Positions 21,718 to 48,379 of a stretch of DNA of 64,000 nucleotides are shown piece after piece (positions within the stretch are counted from its first letter, which is position 1; every line of letters begins with the position of its first letter). This stretch comes from Thalassospira lucentensis MCCC 1A00383 = DSM 14000 (GTDB lineage Bacteria; Pseudomonadota; Alphaproteobacteria; Rhodospirillales; Thalassospiraceae): the NCBI RefSeq assembly GCF_000421265.1, contig NZ_ATWN01000002.1:124001-188000 (forward strand). The letters are read 5' to 3'. Position numbers and translations under genes: made by a program. The notes under the pieces were generated by a model. It worked only from the letters and a program-made list of their open reading frames with translations, searched no databases and was not told the DNA's origin.

Positions 21718-23817
21718 TCAGGCGCGATAGCCAATGCGCAGATTGCCCCATTGTTCGCCGTTTACCATGATCGGCACGTCGCATTCCTTCATGAAGACGA
21801 CGCTGTCGCCCATATCGCGGAAATAGGTTTGCAGAAGATGGGGTTTGGTATTGCGCGCCGCCATCAAACCGGCCCGGTCATCAAAGATGCGCCGGTTGCG
21901 ACAGTTGCCCATGTTCCAGGCCGGTTCGCCGGGACGTTGGGGCTGACTGTAAATCTTGTTGTGGGTCGGAAGATAGCCGTTGAAATCGACCCCGGCGGCA
22001 AAGACGATGTGCTTGTCCTTTTCAAGGACGGCTTCCTGAAGCGGGGTGAAGTTGTGGTCGGTAAACGCGATATAGGGCGTCATGAACTGTTTGGGGTCGC
22101 TGCCCGCAATTGATTCGTAACGCGGACTGAACAGATCGTCGTGCTCGACTTCCTTGTTGCGAAGTCCTGTTTCAAGAACCTTGCCGAGTTCACCGGCCAG
22201 TTTCATCCCGATATCGGCGATCTTGCCGTCATGTTCGTGGGTCTTACGCAGATGGTCGAGAATGACCTCATAGGCCTGATCGTCGACTTCGGTGAACTGA
22301 ACATGGGTCCCAAGGTTTGAGACGGCCTTGACAATCCCATGCAGAACCGTGCCATCGACCATGGTGATGATGATTGGTTTGGCCCGGTCCTTTTCACTGG
22401 CGTCAATACGTGCCAGCAGTCCGGAAGGTGACATGTCCGCCGTCACCCCGCTTCGGACATCGCCGCCACCAAAATCAACCTTGATGTCGACGGCAATCGG
22501 GGCGCGTTCTTCGTTGCGGCGGTTGGTGTTATCGGCACTGCGCAAGACACCGCGGAAACGGCTTTCCATTTCGTTGATGTCGTTGCGGATGTTGGAGGCC
22601 AGAATGCGCAGGTTTTCGGCGGTTTCACTGGCATTTTGGGATTTGTCACTGGCCAGTGCGATGTCGCTTGAAATCCCCTGCATGTGGGTCGAGACTTCCT
22701 GCGCGCTCGATGAAATCTCGGCAATCGCGGCAGTTTGTTGTTCAACCGATGCGGAAATATCTGATGAAAGCTGGCTGACTTCGTCAATCGCGCCACCGAT
22801 GCCCTCAATCGCGGTCACGGCCTCAGACGTTGCCCCCTGAATGGCGGTGATTTGCGAATTGATGTCGAGGATGGCTTTTTCGGTCTGGGTTGCGAGGTTT
22901 TTCACCTCGTTGGCAACCACGGCAAAACCCTTGCCAGCATCGCCGGCACGCGCGGCCTCGATGGTGGCGTTCAGGGCCAGCATCTTGGTCTGATCGGAAA
23001 TGCGTTTGACGATATCAACAACCTTGCCGATCTCGCTTGCGGTGTCTGACAGGCTGTTCATCGTCTGCGATGTTTCGCGCGCGCGGGTTACGGCCTGACC
23101 GGCAATGTCATTGGTTTTGTGAATGCGGTCGGCGATTTCATGGCTGGATGCCTGAAGTTCTTCGGTCGCGGATGCCACGGTTGAGACATTGTTGCTGGCG
23201 ATTGCGGTGGTTGAGGTGATCCGTTCGACCAGATTGGAAAGGTCGTTGGCATCGTTTTCCATGGCTTGCGCCACGTCGTTGGTTCGGCCTGCCTGAAAAC
23301 CGACTTCGGAAATGATATTGTCGGTTTCACGTTCGATGATTTCGGACATCGACTGGACTTCGGATGCCGAACGGCGCTGCATTTTCTTTGCCTGAATGGC
23401 GGACATCAGGCTTGCCATATCGGCCATCAAAAGGCATTGGGCCGCATCGATGAAGGCAGGGGTGTTGCGTGTGCGTTTTGTGCCCGAGGCCAGTGACGCA
23501 CAGCTTGCCGCTGTGGTGTGATAGGCCTGCACCAGACGGTCGGGCGAAATATCGGTTGCGGCGTCGGCGAGCAGGTGCTCATCGAAACACTGGTTAAACG
23601 CGCTGGCAGAAGTGGCATTGGCCATGGCGCGGAAACGATTGGCAAGACCGTCAACAAAGCTTCGCGGATCGCCGGGATCGGCGCTGCTTTGGCCGGTGCC
23701 AAACAATTGGCCAATCAAGCCTTCTGCCAGTTGGGTGGCATGTTGCTCAAAAAGGTCCTTTGTTTCACCTATGCGCGCATAGATTGTGTTTTTAGACGTT
23801 GCAGAGGCGTGATTCAT
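21718..23817 (-). CDS. Soluble methyl-accepting chemotaxis protein with PilZ and C-terminal sensor-like domain
   Basis: A 699-residue chemoreceptor with no transmembrane segment. An N-terminal helical domain (about 1-150) has a globin-like look ([19 protein letters not shown], His81 a possible proximal ligand), which is a guess. The signalling domain (about 160-410) contains the hairpin-tip region [22 protein letters not shown] PilZ domain follows at 432-511, with RRNEER (RxxxR) and DMSPSG (DxSxxG), the c-di-GMP-binding motifs. The last 150 residues ([24 protein letters not shown]) form a PAS/Cache-like domain seen C-terminally in some alphaproteobacterial receptors. It may therefore combine c-di-GMP and a cytoplasmic signal to control CheA. 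Confidence 0.88.
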
Positions 23818-37072: not shown

Positions 37073-37165
37073 CCGATCAGGGTTGAAAACCTCCGTCCGT
37101 GATTGCCCGAAATTAGGGGCTGGTCGGTTTGGGATGAAATCCGTATAAGAACGCATACCCAAGTG

Positions 37166-37371
37166 ATCCCCGTGGGAGAGTGCCACGGTCCATAACGGAT
37201 TGCGCGGACGCCGAAGGAGCAACCACCCCGGAAACTCTCAGGCAAACGGACCGCGGGGAGATGGGACTCTGGAAAGTAGGTGGCATCTTATGATGTGTGC
37301 CTCGCCGAAGATGTAAGCAGACCGATGATCTAAATCGGCTGTGATTCTTTCAGGCTCCAAGACAGAGGGGG
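37166..37371 (+). ncRNA. Tandem glycine riboswitch upstream of gcvT
   Basis: Two consecutive aptamers are visible. The first (about 37166-37257) contains GGGAGAGTGCCAC, the GCCGAAGGAGCAACC core and CCCCGGAAACTCTCAGGC, followed by CGGACCGCGGGG. The second (about 37262-37371) has GGGACTCTGGAAAG, the core CGCCGAAGATGTAAGCAG and GATTCTTTCAGGCTCC, closing with GACAGAGGGG. The pair controls the glycine cleavage genes that follow, as is established for this riboswitch class. The gcvT ATG is 56 bases beyond the second aptamer; no obvious terminator hairpin was found in that short interval, so control of translation is as likely as transcription. Confidence 0.93.
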
Positions 37372-42039: not shown

Positions 42040-42966
42040 ATGTCGCGTCGCGTACAAAAAGTGTTTACCGCCGAACGTCGGTTAAAAGAACGCTCGGGTG
42101 GGGGTGTCGAAGACTGGTCGGATTCGTTTTTTGACCCTACTCTTGAAACTGGTATGGGGGCGGGGGAAGCCTTGCCGTCGCCATCACCATCACATGTCTC
42201 TGAGGATACGTCGGGGATCAATCAGGCCATTCTTGATGAAATCCGGGCGTTGCGCGCGGAAGTCGGGCAGTTGCGCGATGCTGTTGGAAATGGCGGGCAG
42301 TTGGCTGGCGCCGCGGATGCAGGCGGCATGGCAGCACCGGTTGCCTCAAACGATGCGCCGATGGATGTATTGCCTGAGCCGGTTTCAAGTAACTTCAGCC
42401 ATTCAAGCCGGCCCGGTGCATCTGAACCCGATAGTGACGATCTGGAACTGATCCGGACCCAGATCGAGGAAATGAACGAGCACATCCACAAGGCCAAGGT
42501 TCAGATTGCGTCACTTCGCCATCCAAAGGCGCAGGATGACCGGTTCATGAGTGCCGCAACCGAGCTTGACGCCATTGTCAAGGATACGGAGATGGCAACT
42601 CATACGATCCTTGAGTCTGCGGAGCAGATCGACGATCTGGCAATGACGTTGAAAAATTCGGCGCCGAGTGATTTTGTCGCCGATCACGTTGAGCAGATTG
42701 CCTTTATCGTCACGAAAATATTTGAATCCTGTAACTTTCAGGACATTACCGGCCAGCGGATCAACAAGGTTGTGAGCACCCTCGCATTCGTTGAGGAACG
42801 GGTTCACAACATGATTTCGATCTGGGGTGAGGACGCATTTTCCGACCTGCCAGTTTCAGACAAGGACGACACCGAAGAGAAGCCGGAAGACTCCGAACTT
42901 CTGAATGGTCCCCAGCTGCAAGGCGAAGGTATCAGCCAGGATGACATCGACAAATTGTTCGATTAG
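42040..42966 (+). CDS. CheZ-family CheY-P phosphatase, paralogue 1
   Basis: A 308-residue protein. The N-terminus MSRRVQKVFTAERRLKER is followed by an acidic, proline-rich linker, then long helices (about 125-280) forming the CheZ hairpin. The catalytic stretch CNFQDITGQRINKV contains the Asp and Gln expected for CheZ. A disordered linker leads to the C-terminal ISQDDIDKLFD, which resembles both the CheZ C-terminal CheY-binding helix and the FliM N-terminal peptide. The ATG at 42040 is preceded by GGAGG 13 bases upstream; the frame is open from 41875, but that overlaps the gcv terminator. A second copy lies at 47558-48379. No other che or fli genes are nearby. Confidence 0.88.
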   Translation: MSRRVQKVFTAERRLKERSGGGVEDWSDSFFDPTLETGMGAGEALPSPSPSHVSEDTSGINQAILDEIRALRAEVGQLRDAVGNGGQLAGAADAGGMAAPVASNDAPMDVLPEPVSSNFSHSSRPGASEPDSDDLELIRTQIEEMNEHIHKAKVQIASLRHPKAQDDRFMSAATELDAIVKDTEMATHTILESAEQIDDLAMTLKNSAPSDFVADHVEQIAFIVTKIFESCNFQDITGQRINKVVSTLAFVEERVHNMISIWGEDAFSDLPVSDKDDTEEKPEDSELLNGPQLQGEGISQDDIDKLFD

Positions 42967-43175
42967 GTGTTCTAAATGTTGCGGTTTTTCCTATATTTAG
43001 GCTAGAAGGCTTTGAAATCTGGCTTGAAATAAGGTGGCAATCCGCCTATGCGGCGTTTTTTGTCAACTAATCATTTACATATGCTGGGGTAGGTTCATAC
43101 CTATAAGAATAAGAAGCGATGTTGGGATGCGTGTAACATGCGTTTGCACGTGTTTTGCCGTGCTTGGAGGATAAG

Positions 43176-43580
43176 ATGGGATTTTGGTCTCTTGGTGGTA
43201 TTCGCCAGCCAAAGGCACAAGACATTAAGTGGCGCAAGAGTCCGCGTGGTGAATACTATCGTCTGTTCATGATTGACGACATTGCGGAACTCAAGCTGAA
43301 TGGTGTCGGTGGCGTATATCTTTTGTGGCATGGCGGTTTAAAACCATCATGGCTGGTTGCGGGTGCAACCGAAGATCTTGGCCATAGTTTTGCAGAACTG
43401 ATGCGGGATCCCGACATTCGTGAATACGATGGCCGGGGTGGCGTTTACATGAGCTGGTCGCCGATCAAAGGCAGCTTCCGTGAGGGTGTGGTGCATTTCA
43501 TTGCAAAGCACACCAATCCGACCTTTGAATGCGATTACGACAGTCGTGAAGACCCTATTCCGGTTTTGCTGCCGCGCTAA
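43176..43580 (+). CDS. Hypothetical protein, possible degenerate GIY-YIG-like fold
   Basis: A 134-residue cytoplasmic protein starting MGFWSLGGIRQPKAQD, with a strong ribosome site (TTGGAGGATAAG). No family was recognised with confidence. The order GVGGVYLLWHGG, then WLVAGATEDLGHSFAELMRD, then a late Glu-helix (REGVVHFIAKHTNPTFE) recalls the GIY-YIG layout of a GxY strand, a V-G-x-T strand and a Glu before a P-x-N end. The usual catalytic Arg is missing, so nuclease activity is doubtful. It is monocistronic, lies between the two CheZ-like genes, and its 209-base upstream gap holds no recognised element. Confidence 0.7.
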   Translation: MGFWSLGGIRQPKAQDIKWRKSPRGEYYRLFMIDDIAELKLNGVGGVYLLWHGGLKPSWLVAGATEDLGHSFAELMRDPDIREYDGRGGVYMSWSPIKGSFREGVVHFIAKHTNPTFECDYDSREDPIPVLLPR

Positions 43581-43609
43581 CTATATGGCTTGATGGCTCT
43601 TAAAGAACA

Positions 43610-43644
43610 AAAGCTCCGCAGGTTCCTGCGGAGCTTTGTTTTTT
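43610..43644. terminator. Bidirectional intrinsic terminator
   Basis: A stem of 12-13 base pairs, AAAGCTCCGCAGG / CCTGCGGAGCTTT (43610-43622 with 43625-43637). The plus strand continues GTTTTTT and the minus strand TTGTTCTTT. It separates the convergent hypothetical and peroxiredoxin genes. Confidence 0.92.
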
Positions 43645-43666
43645 GCGTAAAAGCCGGGATGTCAGC

Positions 43667-44146
43667 TTAGAGCTTTGTCAGCACGGATTCAGCACTGGAC
43701 ACTTCAAATGCGCCGGGTTCTTCGACGGCGAGATGGGTGACCTTGCCGTTTTCAACAACCATGGCAAAGCGGTTGGCGCGTTTGCCAAGGCCACGACCGG
43801 TAAGATCAAGCTCAAGACCGGTTGCATCGACAAAGGCAAGATCGCCGTCAGACAGCATGGTGATGCCATCGGCATTCTGGCTTTTGGCCCATTCCTGCAT
43901 GACAAATGCGTCATTGGAGGCGAGGCAGGCGATTTCATCAACGCCCTTTGCCTTGATTTCATCAGCCTTGGCGATGAAGCCCGGGAGATGTTTGGCTGAA
44001 CAGGTCGGGGTGAAAGCACCCGGAACAGCGAAAAGAACGATTTTGCGGCCCGCAAAGAATTCTTTGGTATTCACAGCTTCCGGACCGTCGCTCGTTGCGC
44101 GGAACAGGGTTACATCCGGGACTTCGGTGCCGACTGAAATGGTCAT
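43667..44146 (-). CDS. Peroxiredoxin (Prx5-type)
   Basis: A 159-residue peroxiredoxin. The peroxidatic Cys is Cys49 in PGAFTPTCSAKHLPGF, a Prx5-type signature, with KIVLFAVPGAF before it and the late Arg in the GLGKRANRFAMVV segment. It reduces hydrogen peroxide and alkyl hydroperoxides using glutathione or thioredoxin in the cytoplasm. A second cysteine in EIACLASND is the probable Prx5-type partner position. It is followed on the same strand, upstream, by the DsbD-like reductase gene 174 bases away. Confidence 0.92.
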   Translation of the reverse strand: MTISVGTEVPDVTLFRATSDGPEAVNTKEFFAGRKIVLFAVPGAFTPTCSAKHLPGFIAKADEIKAKGVDEIACLASNDAFVMQEWAKSQNADGITMLSDGDLAFVDATGLELDLTGRGLGKRANRFAMVVENGKVTHLAVEEPGAFEVSSAESVLTKL

Positions 44147-44320
44147 GGATATCTCCGTTTGGTTACGTAATCCCGTTGATTACGTCATGGATCGCATGGC
44201 TTGGAAGCAAACTACAAAATCACTGGATGTTCAATGGTATCCGCATCCGTTTTACCAAGTGTCATTATTTGTACGCGATTATTCTGGAATTGTTCCGGTT
44301 AGGCTCAGATGTGGGTGAAA

Positions 44321-46549
44321 TTAGTTGCTGGCAAGCCCGGCCGTCGATCTTGCATCCTTGATGGCATCAAGAACAGCATCACGGCTGAGCAATTCAGACA
44401 GCAAAACCCCCTTGGGTGCATTCGGGCCAAACACCGCGTTAAATGGGATGCCATACCGTCCATAGGATGCCAGATAATCGGCAATTTCCGGGTCCGGGCG
44501 GGTCCAGTCAGCTTGCATCAGAATAATGTCGTCATTGGCAAAAAATTCTGCAAGCTCGGCGGTTTCAATCACCAGTTTTTTATTGACCTGACAACTGACA
44601 CACCATTCCGCCGTAACGTCGACAAAGACGGTCTTGCCATCTGCAATCAATGCCGGAATGGTCTCAGGTGCAAACGTCTGCCAATCAAGGGGGCCGGTGG
44701 CCGCAGTTGATACGCTTGACGGTGCGGGCGGCTTCGAGAAACCCGGCGCAAACAGGGCGACCAGAAAACCGGTTACGGCAAGGGCGGTAAAGACAAATCG
44801 TGGGCGCAGGTTTTGACTACGCTTGCGGGCCCAGACAAATACCGCGCCAAGGACAAGGCCGACCCCAACGGCAATCGCCCCGCCAAGGCCGATTTGAACT
44901 GCCAGAATGCTCAGAAGCCATATTGCGGTGCCAACCAGTGCCAGACCAAGAACGGCCTTCACAACACTCATCCAGCGCCCGGGTTTGGGCAGGGCATGGG
45001 CCAGTCTTGGCTGAAGGGCGATTGCCAGATACGGAATGGCAAGGCCAACACCCAGCAACGTGAAAATCCAGATGATGTCAAAGCTGCTGCCTGCCAAGGC
45101 AAAGCCAACCGCCGTTCCAAGGAACGGGGCAGAACAGGGCGTTGCGAGCAAGGTCGCGAACATGCCGGTCATGAAATGGCTGCTGATGTGACGGCCACCT
45201 TTTTCCTGCTGGTTGATCACGTCATTGGCGGCGGTCCCCAGATTGTCGGAGCCGTTAATTTCAAACAGGCCCCACATATTGAGGGCAAACAGCGCAAGAA
45301 TGATGGTCATCACGGTCAGGAAAAGAGGTTGCTGGAACTGTATGCCCCAGCCAATCGATCCCCCGGTCAGCTTGATCGCGATCAGAACTGCTGCAATCAG
45401 CCAGAACGATGTGATGATGCCTGCCGCACTGGCGAGAAAACCACTGCGGACCCGGTTGATTTCGCCTTCGCGGGCGTTGATCGCCGACATGACCTTGATC
45501 GACAAGACCGGCAAGACACAGGGCATGACATTGAGGATCAGGCCGCCAAGCAGTGCAAAAAGGCCGATAAGCAAGATGTTTGCACCGGCCCCGGTTGCAG
45601 GCGCCATGGTATCTGCGCCAAGAGGTTCGCCTTGGGCGGAAGCATCAGTTGGGCCATTTGCGACGGTCCGGCTTTGTTCAATGGCCAATGGTCCTGCAAT
45701 GACAGTGACGGTCATTGTTTCAGATGCAATATCCTGATCGGCGTTGAGGCCAAAAACCGGGACAGTGAATTGTCGGTTATTGCTTTCGACATCTTTGTTC
45801 ACCGCAACAGGTGCACCAAAGCCAATGCGAAGCGGGCTTTCGACCAGAATATCATCCACAGTCACACCGGCATTAGACAGCCCGTCGACCGATAGGTGCA
45901 ATTGCGTCGCGTCACCGTCCTTGGTGGCAAAAACGTTGCTGACCTGTATTGGCAGGTTGTCGCCAGTTAGCGGAACCTTTGAGACGAACTTTTCAATTTC
46001 GTGTGCGTGGGTGCTGGCTATTGATGCGCCGGATGTTGAGGTGTCGGGGTTTCCGTTTGCCGGGATATCAAGGGCGAAGGTCGCGGCCGCAGGAATGCAG
46101 ATGTCGCTACAGACAAGGTAGTCGACGTCCAAATTGATTGCGACGGACTGTGTGCGATCGGGGATCGCGACGTCAATCGGCAGGATGACATGGTTCTTGT
46201 AGCCAAATGTTTCCAGACCAAAGATCGAGAACCGGTGCGGGGCAGGCCACAGGATATTGGCATCCCCGACATTTTGTGACCCCGCCCAATCTAGTTGCGG
46301 GGGAAAACCGGCGTCGCCTGCGCTGCGCCAATAGATTTTCCAATCAGGCTGAAGTTCGAATTCAAGGCCAAGACGCAGCGTGTCCGATGAACCGGTCTGG
46401 GTTTGCGCACTGATGAGCCGCAGAGACGCGAAATCTTCGTCTGTCCATGGGGTGGATACATCGGTGGCAGCCGTCGCCGGTGTGGCTAAAACCGGGGCGC
46501 AAATGGCAGCAAGCAAAAAAACAAAACGGGCGATCAGGTAGCGGAGCAC
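44321..46549 (-). CDS. DsbD/ScsB-type thiol:disulfide interchange protein (GTG start)
   Basis: About 742 residues from the GTG at 46549, which is preceded by AAGGACATTGAC. A signal peptide (YLIARFVFLLAAICAPVLA) leads to a long periplasmic domain with a CSDIC pair (DYLVCSDICIPAAA). A DsbD-type membrane domain with eight helices has NVMPCVLPVLSIK and TPCSAPFLG, the two redox cysteines. The C-terminal periplasmic thioredoxin domain carries DVTAEWCVSCQVNKK. It carries electrons from cytoplasmic thioredoxin to periplasmic partners. The long N-terminal domain is ScsB-like rather than classical DsbD. Clients could include the TlpA protein; this is inference. Confidence 0.9.
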   Translation of the reverse strand: MLRYLIARFVFLLAAICAPVLATPATAATDVSTPWTDEDFASLRLISAQTQTGSSDTLRLGLEFELQPDWKIYWRSAGDAGFPPQLDWAGSQNVGDANILWPAPHRFSIFGLETFGYKNHVILPIDVAIPDRTQSVAINLDVDYLVCSDICIPAAATFALDIPANGNPDTSTSGASIASTHAHEIEKFVSKVPLTGDNLPIQVSNVFATKDGDATQLHLSVDGLSNAGVTVDDILVESPLRIGFGAPVAVNKDVESNNRQFTVPVFGLNADQDIASETMTVTVIAGPLAIEQSRTVANGPTDASAQGEPLGADTMAPATGAGANILLIGLFALLGGLILNVMPCVLPVLSIKVMSAINAREGEINRVRSGFLASAAGIITSFWLIAAVLIAIKLTGGSIGWGIQFQQPLFLTVMTIILALFALNMWGLFEINGSDNLGTAANDVINQQEKGGRHISSHFMTGMFATLLATPCSAPFLGTAVGFALAGSSFDIIWIFTLLGVGLAIPYLAIALQPRLAHALPKPGRWMSVVKAVLGLALVGTAIWLLSILAVQIGLGGAIAVGVGLVLGAVFVWARKRSQNLRPRFVFTALAVTGFLVALFAPGFSKPPAPSSVSTAATGPLDWQTFAPETIPALIADGKTVFVDVTAEWCVSCQVNKKLVIETAELAEFFANDDIILMQADWTRPDPEIADYLASYGRYGIPFNAVFGPNAPKGVLLSELLSRDAVLDAIKDARSTAGLASN

Positions 46550-46898
46550 GTCAATGTCCTTAAAACGGTGTGCATCATGGCATCTGGCAGTGGGGCGCTC
46601 ATGCCATTGAGGTATGGCACAATTCAGGCAGTTTTTCATCTATCGAAGGCGTAGTCCCCAACCGCGATCAAATCAAGCCACGACTGTGTGACCGGGGTCT
46701 CCGTCAGAGCGCTTTTTGAGCCACTATCGGTAAATAATCGCTGAAAACCGTGGCACTGAGCAGAGGTTGACCCTACATTTAGAATATCAAGTTTTGATCG
46801 TTGCGGGGCGATGTTTTGTCGGGTTTTCCGGGTTCTTGATGGAAATAGACCGGTAATCGCGCTAGGCTTGGTCAAACAGAGACAGAAAGAGACGTAAA

Positions 46899-47477
46899 AT
46901 GGGCGTGCGTGGAGACACAGGCGAATATCTTGGTGGAAAGTTGTTGATCGCAATGCCGGGCATGCGTGATCCGCGCTTTTCACAAAGTGTTGTCTATGTC
47001 TGTGCCCATAATGAAGATGGTGCAATGGGGCTTGTGATCAATCGTGTGATTGACAGCATCACCTTCCCCGAGCTTCTTGAGCAGCTTGGTATTGCGCGCC
47101 CGGCACCGACCATTCAGGACATTCAGGTACATTTTGGCGGCCCGGTCGAAAGCAGTCGCGGGTTCGTATTGCATTCCACCGACTTTTCCAACGAGGCAAC
47201 CCTGCACGTTGATACCGGCGTTTCGGTGACGGCCACGGTTGATATCCTCGAACAGATTGCGTTGGGTGAGGGGCCGGAAAACAGCATTCTGGCGCTTGGC
47301 TATGCCGGATGGCGCAGCGGGCAGCTGGAGAACGAAATTCTGGCCAATGGCTGGCTGCATCTTGATGCGGATGCCGATTTGTTGTTCGACATTGATTGCG
47401 AAGACAAATGGGAACAGGCGTTTACCAAGCTTGGTTTTGCCCCGGAATTGCTATCGGGGGAAGCTGGTCACGCCTGA
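46899..47477 (+). CDS. YqgE/AlgH family protein (UPF0301)
   Basis: A 192-residue YqgE/AlgH protein. Characteristic motifs are [54 protein letters not shown] and [16 protein letters not shown]. The molecular role is not settled; AlgH was named for an effect on alginate regulation in Pseudomonas. Divergent from the DsbD-like gene with about 350 bases between starts, in which no operator was recognised. Ends at a terminator shared with the convergent cheZ-like gene. Confidence 0.9.
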
Positions 47478-47506
47478 TCAGAAGGTTATTGCATTGCTGG
47501 AATTGA

Positions 47507-47535
47507 AAAAGCCTGCCGATTGGCAGGCTTTTGCG
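47507..47535. terminator. Bidirectional intrinsic terminator
   Basis: An 11-base-pair stem AAAAGCCTGCC / GGCAGGCTTTT (47507-47517 with 47522-47532), loop GATT, between yqgE and the convergent cheZ paralogue 2. The stem itself ends in T-runs on both strands. Confidence 0.88.
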
Positions 47536-47557
47536 TTTCATGCGGGCTACACCGGCA

Positions 47558-48379
47558 TTAATCAAACAAGGCGTCGATTTCGGCCTGTGAGAAGATCTGA
47601 TCGACTTCATCCTGATCGACACGTTGCGCATTTTGTGGCGCCTTGGTGACAGTTTTATCAAGGTTGTCGAGCCCTTTGGGGTCGGCTGGAACTTCGAAGT
47701 CACCGAAGTCATCATCACCCCAGATCTCGATCACGCGATTTACGCGTTCCTCGATATATTTCATGGTGTTAACGACTTTGGTAATCCGTTGACCGGTCAA
47801 ATCCTGGAAGTTGCAGCTTTCAAAGACCTTGACGACAAGTTCGACAATATCGTCGGCCAGCCCCTGAGTGTAGTCATCTGTGGCGGCCGAACGGATGTTG
47901 TGGGCAACAGCATCAATTTTTTCGACAGTGTCGAGAATGCTTGCGGTTGCATCCTCGGTCGCGGCAACGACAGAGTCCAACTCGCCCTTGACGATATTGA
48001 TGCGCGTGCCGCTGTCATCTTCAGGGGCGGTATACAAGGCGGCGATTTCTTTTTTGGTTTCCTGAATGGAATTTGCCAATGCCCGAATTTCGGTTTTCAG
48101 CAGACGCAGTTCAGCACGTGCGTCTTCCTCATCGTCCTCTTCGGGCTGTGCGGTGAGTTTCTTCTGCTCTTCTATCATGATGCGGATGTCAGACAGCAGC
48201 TCAAGCTTGAGGTCTTCAATCGCGGTATGAACGGCCGACAGATCCGGGCCGCCAACACCCGCTTGATGTGGTTCGGTAGGCATCTCGGTTGGCAAGGCGA
48301 CCATGTCGCTCATGTTTTCGAGTTTGTTAAGCAACCGCAATTCTGCGGTGAAGAGCTTTTTGCTTCCGTGGCGTGCCAT
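47558..48379 (-). CDS. CheZ-family CheY-P phosphatase, paralogue 2
   Basis: A 273-residue paralogue of the protein at 42040-42966. The N-terminus MARHGSKKLFTAELRLLNKLE resembles paralogue 1, an acidic linker follows, and the helical core carries VFESCNFQDLTGQRITKVVN, identical to paralogue 1 around the catalytic Asp-Gln. The C-terminus holds two consecutive copies of the CheY-docking-like motif, DQDEVDQIF then SQAEIDALF, followed by a final Asp. The ATG at 48379 is preceded by AGAGG; the frame is open to 48457. It faces a gene-free region of about 800 bases. Confidence 0.88.
   Translation of the reverse strand: MARHGSKKLFTAELRLLNKLENMSDMVALPTEMPTEPHQAGVGGPDLSAVHTAIEDLKLELLSDIRIMIEEQKKLTAQPEEDDEEDARAELRLLKTEIRALANSIQETKKEIAALYTAPEDDSGTRINIVKGELDSVVAATEDATASILDTVEKIDAVAHNIRSAATDDYTQGLADDIVELVVKVFESCNFQDLTGQRITKVVNTMKYIEERVNRVIEIWGDDDFGDFEVPADPKGLDNLDKTVTKAPQNAQRVDQDEVDQIFSQAEIDALFD

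Follow-up and report, generated by a model that had tools for sequence, protein, structure and literature searches.

A predicted tandem CheY-docking tail on one of two neighbouring CheZ paralogues in Thalassospira lucentensis

The CheZ genes of the window and of the genome

A 64,000-nucleotide stretch of Thalassospira lucentensis MCCC 1A00383 = DSM 14000 (contig NZ_ATWN01000002.1, positions 124,001 to 188,000 of the forward strand), called here the window, carries two genes for CheZ, the phosphatase of the phosphorylated chemotaxis regulator CheY (CheY-P). The genes are convergent, paralogue 1 on the plus and paralogue 2 on the minus strand, with about 4.6 kb between them (Table 1). The frame of paralogue 1 is open from 41875, and the start at 42040 fits the M-(S/T)-R-x-V-Q-K-V-F-T-A-E of its relatives; AGAGG precedes the start of paralogue 2 (48379, minus strand), and residues 1-272 of this protein are 100% identical to T. 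lohafexi 139Z-12. CNFQD(I/L)TGQRI, common to both paralogues, contains the D-x-x-x-Q phosphatase motif. Paralogue 1 ends in ...GISQDDIDKLFD, and paralogue 2 in ...DQDEVDQIF-SQAEIDALFD, which reads as two predicted CheY-docking motifs placed directly one behind the other. An original prediction, made from the letters of the window, had described two CheZ paralogues and this tandem tail; the ATG and stop codons of both genes agree with it, both proteins lie above the Pfam CheZ cut-off and both tails are found as quoted.

With the Pfam family CheZ (PF04344, cut-off 30.7 bits) paralogue 1 scored 39.7 bits and paralogue 2 31.9 bits; the NCBIfam CheZ equivalog cut-off of 257 was reached by neither (29.9 and 17.7 bits, respectively). 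No Pfam family besides CheZ exceeded its cut-off in either paralogue, and no FliM rotor domain was found in them. Two alignments were built, A1 (66 CheZ proteins, paralogue 2 first) and A2 (the alignment of paralogue 1). All 66 members of A1 gave a CheZ match at E ≤ 0.001, and the active-site D and Q are invariant across both alignments. The best match of the A1 profile in the PDB was the CheZ chain 1kmi_Z (E 5.1e-8), with a best stretch that spans the active site and the tail; a phmmer search of the PDB with paralogue 2 alone found no CheZ. The AlphaFold2 monomer model of paralogue 2 (66-row alignment; mean predicted local distance difference test score, pLDDT, 74.6; predicted template modelling score, pTM, 0.43) has long helices at residues 125-164 and 168-219 and, with low confidence, two separate short helices at 255-261 and 264-271 over the two motifs. 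The model of paralogue 1 (38-row alignment; pTM 0.44) has a hairpin at 170-208/213-264 and a C-terminal helix at 302-309 (block pLDDT 78).

Table 1. Features of the two CheZ genes in the window
Feature	Position	Strand	Remarks
CheZ paralogue 1	42040..42966	+	308 aa; ATG at 42040, stop ends at 42966; Pfam match
KVFTAERRL N-terminal motif, paralogue 1	42058..42084	+	from alignment A2
Active site FQDITGQ, paralogue 1	42736..42756	+	D and Q correspond to the catalytic pair of CheZ; invariant in A2
Single C-terminal CheY-docking motif SQDDIDKLFD, paralogue 1	42934..42963	+	predicted from the motif pattern
CheZ paralogue 2	47558..48379	-	273 aa; ATG at 48379, stop ends at 47558; Pfam match
Docking copy 2 SQAEIDALFD, paralogue 2	47561..47590	-	predicted; C-terminal addition
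Docking copy 1 DQDEVDQIF, paralogue 2	47591..47617	-	predicted; at the usual position of the single CheZ motif
Active site FQDLTGQ, paralogue 2	47789..47809	-	D and Q invariant in A1
KLFTAELR N-terminal motif, paralogue 2	48335..48358	-	common to paralogue 1

A CheZ family search of the 4.74-Mb, 21-contig genome returned three genes, the two of the window and a third (213 aa) that immediately follows cheY in the flagellar operon, where fliM also lies, and is additional to those noted earlier. CheW-domain matches occur at one place only, with one CheA and one CheW; a CheY gene stands behind this pair and, by reading of the letters, CheB and CheR adjoin. As to the number of cheY copies, which the original prediction had left to be counted, there are two stand-alone CheY genes in different operons, the second being the one next to the third cheZ, plus further single receivers. 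The flagellar-operon CheY aligns over residues 4-124 with solved CheY chains; it matches chain 1a0o_A, which we take to be E. coli CheY, at E 1.5e-38, against E 6.1e-17 for the che-operon CheY. A single kinase, two or more CheY and three CheZ thus appear to share one pathway. A CheX/CheC-like phosphatase gene also stands beside a receiver-domain match in the same genome (L123:1-578, minus strand), and CheY-P may have a fourth phosphatase there.

The genome was also searched at the DNA level for the docking pattern Q-x-(D/E)-(V/I/M)-D-x-x-(L/F), which gave 12 matches, against one for the reversed pattern used as control. The C-termini of the three CheZ proteins, with paralogue 2 counted twice, and the N-terminal extension of FliM account for five of these matches. 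The remaining seven are all away from protein ends: six are internal to other proteins or to spurious frames, and the seventh fits no frame. The excess over the reversed pattern, and the restriction of end-of-protein matches to CheZ and FliM, argue that the docking tails are not due to chance. The N-terminal extension of FliM (L121:5100-6245) is acidic, with a unit of the type AAEWE(A/S)M repeated twice and then the docking motif VLNQDEIDSLLGF. The 238-aa protein encoded just before cheY-cheZ (L121:7146-7862) has FTQEEIDLLQNL, a near-miss of the docking motif.

Docking tails in Thalassospira and in other CheZ proteins

In searches with paralogue 2 the alignment extended through the final residue of the tail in every genome of the family (29/29), each a species of the single genus Thalassospira. 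Every genome gave at least three matches (28 gave exactly three, and one a further weak match at E 6.9e-4), and the two paralogues lie on one contig, about 4 to 13 kb apart, in 28 of the 29, the remaining genome (G120) having them on separate contigs. Both docking copies are kept in all 25 distinct Thalassospira paralogue-2 sequences, so that the conservation in close relatives that the original prediction had proposed to check is indeed found. Copy 1 reads xQxE(V/I)DQIF, with Q, E, D, Q, I and F fixed and V or I at position 5, and copy 2 reads SQxEIDALFD, in which the third residue alone varies; both copies vary at the residue after Q and both keep Q, E, V/I, D, I/L and F (25/25). The ratio of non-synonymous to synonymous polymorphism (pN/pS, 25 distinct sequences) is 0.173 for copy 1, 0.056 for copy 2, 0.216 for the linker and 0.073 for the core. 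Copy 2 is clearly constrained, as much as the core; copy 1 is less constrained by this measure because its first and third positions vary, its motif residues being fixed. A recent DNA duplication in Thalassospira was ruled out as the source of the tandem, since the copies share only 12-19 of 27 bases.

The position of the copies shows which of the two was added. The distance from the active-site motif to the first docking motif is 65 residues in 25/25 Thalassospira paralogue-2 sequences, and its median is also 65 in 153 single-motif alphaproteobacterial proteins (54-83), in 34 multi-motif proteins (62-73) and in 55 non-alphaproteobacterial ones (53-94). The Q of the last motif stands nine residues from the C-terminus in 25/25 Thalassospira paralogue-2 sequences and in 34/34 other multi-motif proteins. 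An LLNGP-like stretch lies ahead of the first motif in 31 of these 34, and ahead of the second motif in none of the 13 whose spacing exceeds 22 residues. The upstream copy thus stands at the position of the single motif of other CheZ, and the second copy is a C-terminal addition.

The tails of other CheZ proteins were surveyed at loci that represent part of the matches listed, mostly the top of ranked lists that were truncated in their turn; this census is non-exhaustive and partly targeted, and its counts are not prevalences. Regions were in part picked because the alignment reached the last or penultimate residue of paralogue 2 (five of 20 in one batch, 11 of 20 in a later one), and the five so chosen in the first batch proved to be single-motif. 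Candidates in which the active-site pattern was not found were dropped (four in the first count; five in the later count, three of them non-alphaproteobacterial), as were open frames cut by the end of a locus, and sequences identical over their last 170 residues entered the count as one. The non-alphaproteobacterial sample comprises 30 top-scoring loci and a hand-picked part of the rest. A strict form of the motif missed the variant QDAIDKLFG in one genus, and a relaxed form was used thereafter.

Before the later of these batches, at least two strict motifs were found in 12/94 CheZ proteins from other genera of the order and in 11/75 from other orders of the class, in total 23 of 169 distinct proteins, and in 0/61 non-alphaproteobacterial CheZ. 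The search for the repeat that the original prediction had suggested has a positive outcome within the class. When the part of the tail ahead of the last motif was shuffled, a mean of 0.03 proteins gained an extra motif (maximum two in 1000 rounds), against the 23 observed. After 20 further regions the counts were 28/188 by the strict form (shuffles 0.03) and 34/188 by the relaxed form (shuffles 0.05), and the 34 relaxed multi-motif proteins span 34 genomes, 20 genera and 10 families. Doubled tails are by no means general, a single motif being present in 153/188 even by the relaxed form. The motifs are spaced nine residues apart in 16 multi-motif tails and 13, 22, 32 or 50-86 residues apart in others, the long-spaced tails often crossing a proline- and alanine-rich linker. 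One CheZ from another order of the class (L219, G189 C1) has four docking motifs by the relaxed form in a proline-rich tail. Among 32 genomes with at least two sampled CheZ, 22 have exactly one multi-motif CheZ, ten have none and none has two (relaxed form); shuffled labels reproduce this in 0.14% of rounds, a figure softened by shared ancestry and incomplete sampling, and a limit of one multi-motif CheZ per genome is best taken as a lead. While the enzyme, the docking tail and the CheY face that it binds are already known, repeated docking motifs seem to be a new variant of CheZ, none having been found among the titles and abstract openings listed in searches of openly licensed papers, a scope outside which most subscription journals lie.

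A single docking tail, to judge from the proteins compared, is the normal end of CheZ and not a feature specific to FliM: exactly one strict motif is present in 55/61 non-alphaproteobacterial and in 151/188 other alphaproteobacterial CheZ. An origin of the tail from FliM was ruled out, single docking tails being the commonest state of CheZ in each group sampled outside Thalassospira. The original prediction had called the tails closer to the CheY-binding peptide of FliM than to the end of E. coli CheZ; the part that holds is that these are CheY-docking tails, but the opposition was overstated, since the CheZ of 1KMI aligns as SQDQVDDLLD and such a tail is standard in CheZ. E. coli CheZ (PF04344, 1KMI) has, like the paralogues, a D/Q active site in a helical hairpin, a linker, an LLNGPQ stretch and an SQDQVDDLL docking helix; it has one docking copy, whereas paralogue 2 carries two and also differs in its long N-terminus. 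The motif Q lies 13 residues from the C-terminus in 55/55 non-alphaproteobacterial CheZ with a motif, compared to nine in paralogue 2, and the first 30 of these proteins all end in LGF.

A likeness to FliM is expected because CheZ and FliM bind the same face of CheY, for which Guhaniyogi 2008 is reportedly the source. Similar contacts of both proteins on that shared face are described in an excerpt of PMC3774744. The N-terminal CheY-P-binding peptide of FliM uses the same motif as the CheZ tails, but it sits at the N-terminus of a rotor protein without a phosphatase domain, whereas the tails of CheZ are C-terminal; the likeness reflects the shared CheY face and not descent of a domain. In Helicobacter pylori, deletions in a remote CheZ were reportedly first described by Lertsethtakarn and Ottemann in 2010. 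C-terminal deletions of this protein, one of them of 12 residues, are said in part of PMC11237671 to abolish its phosphatase function. The CheZ of Azorhizobium caulinodans ORS571, as far as sections of PMC7750401 describe it and its active-site motif, resembles the paralogues in its ACNFQD...Q region, its long N-terminal helix, its C-terminal helix and the lack of a CheA-short site; it is the one CheZ described there and has one C-terminal helix, whereas Thalassospira has three CheZ genes, one with a doubled motif. Under hypoxia this CheZ moves to the cell pole, a behaviour for which its C-terminus and three Aer-like receptors are important, according to PMC8563088.

A tree of 65 hand-chosen rows, from which rows with fewer than 140 core residues were left out, requires eight changes of the multi-motif state, five of them forced by well-supported branches. 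The approximately unbiased (AU) test, applied to the same rows, rejected a single group of Thalassospira paralogue 2 with the doubled rows of the main Rhodospirillales clade (p 2.1e-7) and a single clade of all 21 doubled rows (p 8.9e-8), with the proviso that the groups were defined once a quick 192-row tree had been seen and the p values do not come from a blind test. The count of changes cannot separate gains from losses, and the AU result leaves one old gain with many losses possible. For paralogue 2 a gain is the simpler reading, because the closest relatives in other families have one motif each and paralogue 2 forms the only multi-motif group among 45 rows of the 192-row tree. All three Thalassospira CheZ fall outside the main doubled Rhodospirillales clade in that tree; Thalassospira seems to be without the paralogue of that clade and to carry its doubled tail on another one.

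Possible roles of a second docking motif

The reading that we favour, and regard as fairly probable, is that both paralogues are CheZ-type phosphatases and that both copies in paralogue 2 dock CheY-P, which would raise the capacity of the tail. The helical hairpin would dimerise and carry the D/Q active site; it would be followed by a flexible linker and by a short C-terminal helix that would grip the alpha4-beta5-alpha5 face of CheY-P. A second docking helix, added behind the ancestral one, would give a paralogue 2 dimer four docking sites instead of two and would make the tethering of CheY-P near the active site likelier, with a lower apparent Michaelis constant and better competition with FliM. 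The three CheZ proteins would share the CheY-P of one chemotaxis system. Phosphatase activity, dimerisation and docking are attributed to the paralogues by analogy with CheZ biology, while the anatomy of the proteins, its conservation and the doubled tails of other CheZ were observed directly.

Several points weigh against this reading. A spacing of nine residues would put the two copies on opposite sides of a continuous helix, and two CheY may not fit at once. Copy 1, with a pN/pS barely under that of the linker, may be a weaker or less used site. The tail helices of the paralogue 2 model have low pLDDT values (about 47-61), and Foldseek and VIA-align searches with that model gave chemoreceptor hairpins and generic helical bundles, with no CheZ chain among the matches listed; such fold searches are uninformative for helical hairpins of this kind, at least with this model.

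Instead of serving one dimer, the extra sites could let CheY-P join more CheZ dimers, held by the tail of one and the active site of another, so that oligomers form and switch-off becomes sharper. Two docking sites per tail would raise valency, and the variable spacing (9 to 86 residues, with one four-motif protein) is what a flexible valency would allow; on the other hand, closely spaced copies may block each other, and the 0/32 genomes with two doubled CheZ fit one special enzyme per genome and need no oligomers. We consider cross-linking of this kind unlikely. A division of labour is improbable to a like degree: each copy would be tuned to a different CheY, that of the flagellar operon or that of the che operon, and paralogue 2 would couple two response regulators. 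The two stand-alone CheY genes do lie in different operons and differ strongly in their match to 1a0o_A, and the residues fixed in the copies differ as well (DQIF versus DALF, 25/25); however, both copies conform to the motif that single-tailed CheZ carry throughout the class, nothing ties a copy to a CheY, and the copies of other doubled tails differ in other ways. That slippage in the tail produced the added motif as a neutral by-product, with one copy alone of importance, is more doubtful still: the motif is short and copy 1 is less constrained than copy 2, but the tandem is kept in 29/29 species despite the low DNA identity of the copies and a varying linker, the multi-motif proteins are not one clade, and an extra motif hardly ever arises in shuffled tails.

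A wider reading is put forward tentatively and with little confidence: alphaproteobacteria could have repeatedly evolved multivalent CheZ tails (two to four motifs, variable spacing, at most one such CheZ per genome sampled), whose valency would make one CheZ a cross-linked or high-capacity sink for CheY-P and sharpen switch-off beside single-tailed CheZ. Why the enzyme needs a tethered docking helix, and whether it acts together with CheY-P in oligomers, are questions discussed chiefly on the basis of E. coli. Docking valency already differs in nature: there are CheZ with one, two or four motifs, in separate branches and beside single-tailed paralogues in the same cell, and the doubling is a natural test of what a second docking tag does. 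Additionally, an alphaproteobacterium can carry more than one CheZ gene, a multiplicity that similarity surveys based on E. coli CheZ may overlook; according to a passage of PMC2829493, the count of a previous survey was 105 CheZ in 102 of 523 genomes, compared to at least three matches to one CheZ query in 29/29 Thalassospira.

N-terminal peptide and gene neighbourhoods

Both window paralogues start with a conserved (K/R)(L/V)FTAExR peptide, which a variable linker connects to the core. The wider form (L/V/I/M)F(S/T)A(E/D)x(R/K) occurs in 43/44 distinct Thalassospira CheZ rows and in 23/113 others of the order, and in 0/75 from other orders of the class and 0/61 non-alphaproteobacterial CheZ; this FTAE-type peptide is a candidate localisation or partner-binding motif.

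Paralogue 1 lies downstream of glycine cleavage genes, and paralogue 2 is flanked by an AlgH-like gene (DUF179) and by cytochrome c oxidase genes, the sole hint in the window of a link to oxygen sensing. At 11 loci outside Thalassospira there was no cox gene and no other neighbour from the window, except for a gcvT-like gene in another family of the order (L134:5129-10834), about 4 kb from the relative of paralogue 2 and possibly a remnant of the gcv-cheZ arrangement seen in the window. A hemerythrin gene stands beside the relative of paralogue 2 at two of the 11 loci, both in other families: L131:4046-5310, and L137:1968-5574, where genes for a PAS protein and for a receptor that has a zinc-binding domain are also adjacent. 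The neighbours of these relatives hint at oxygen or redox taxis, and a link of paralogue 2 to oxygen sensing is possible.

The original prediction had stated that no other che or fli genes are nearby, which is true of operons, none of the che/fli kind being among the annotated genes of the window, but passes over a chemoreceptor signalling domain fused to PilZ at 21718-23817 (minus strand), a possible receptor linked to cyclic di-GMP. Ahead of the glycine cleavage genes, at 37163-37367 (plus strand), lies a tandem glycine riboswitch, a doubled binding site of a well-known kind.

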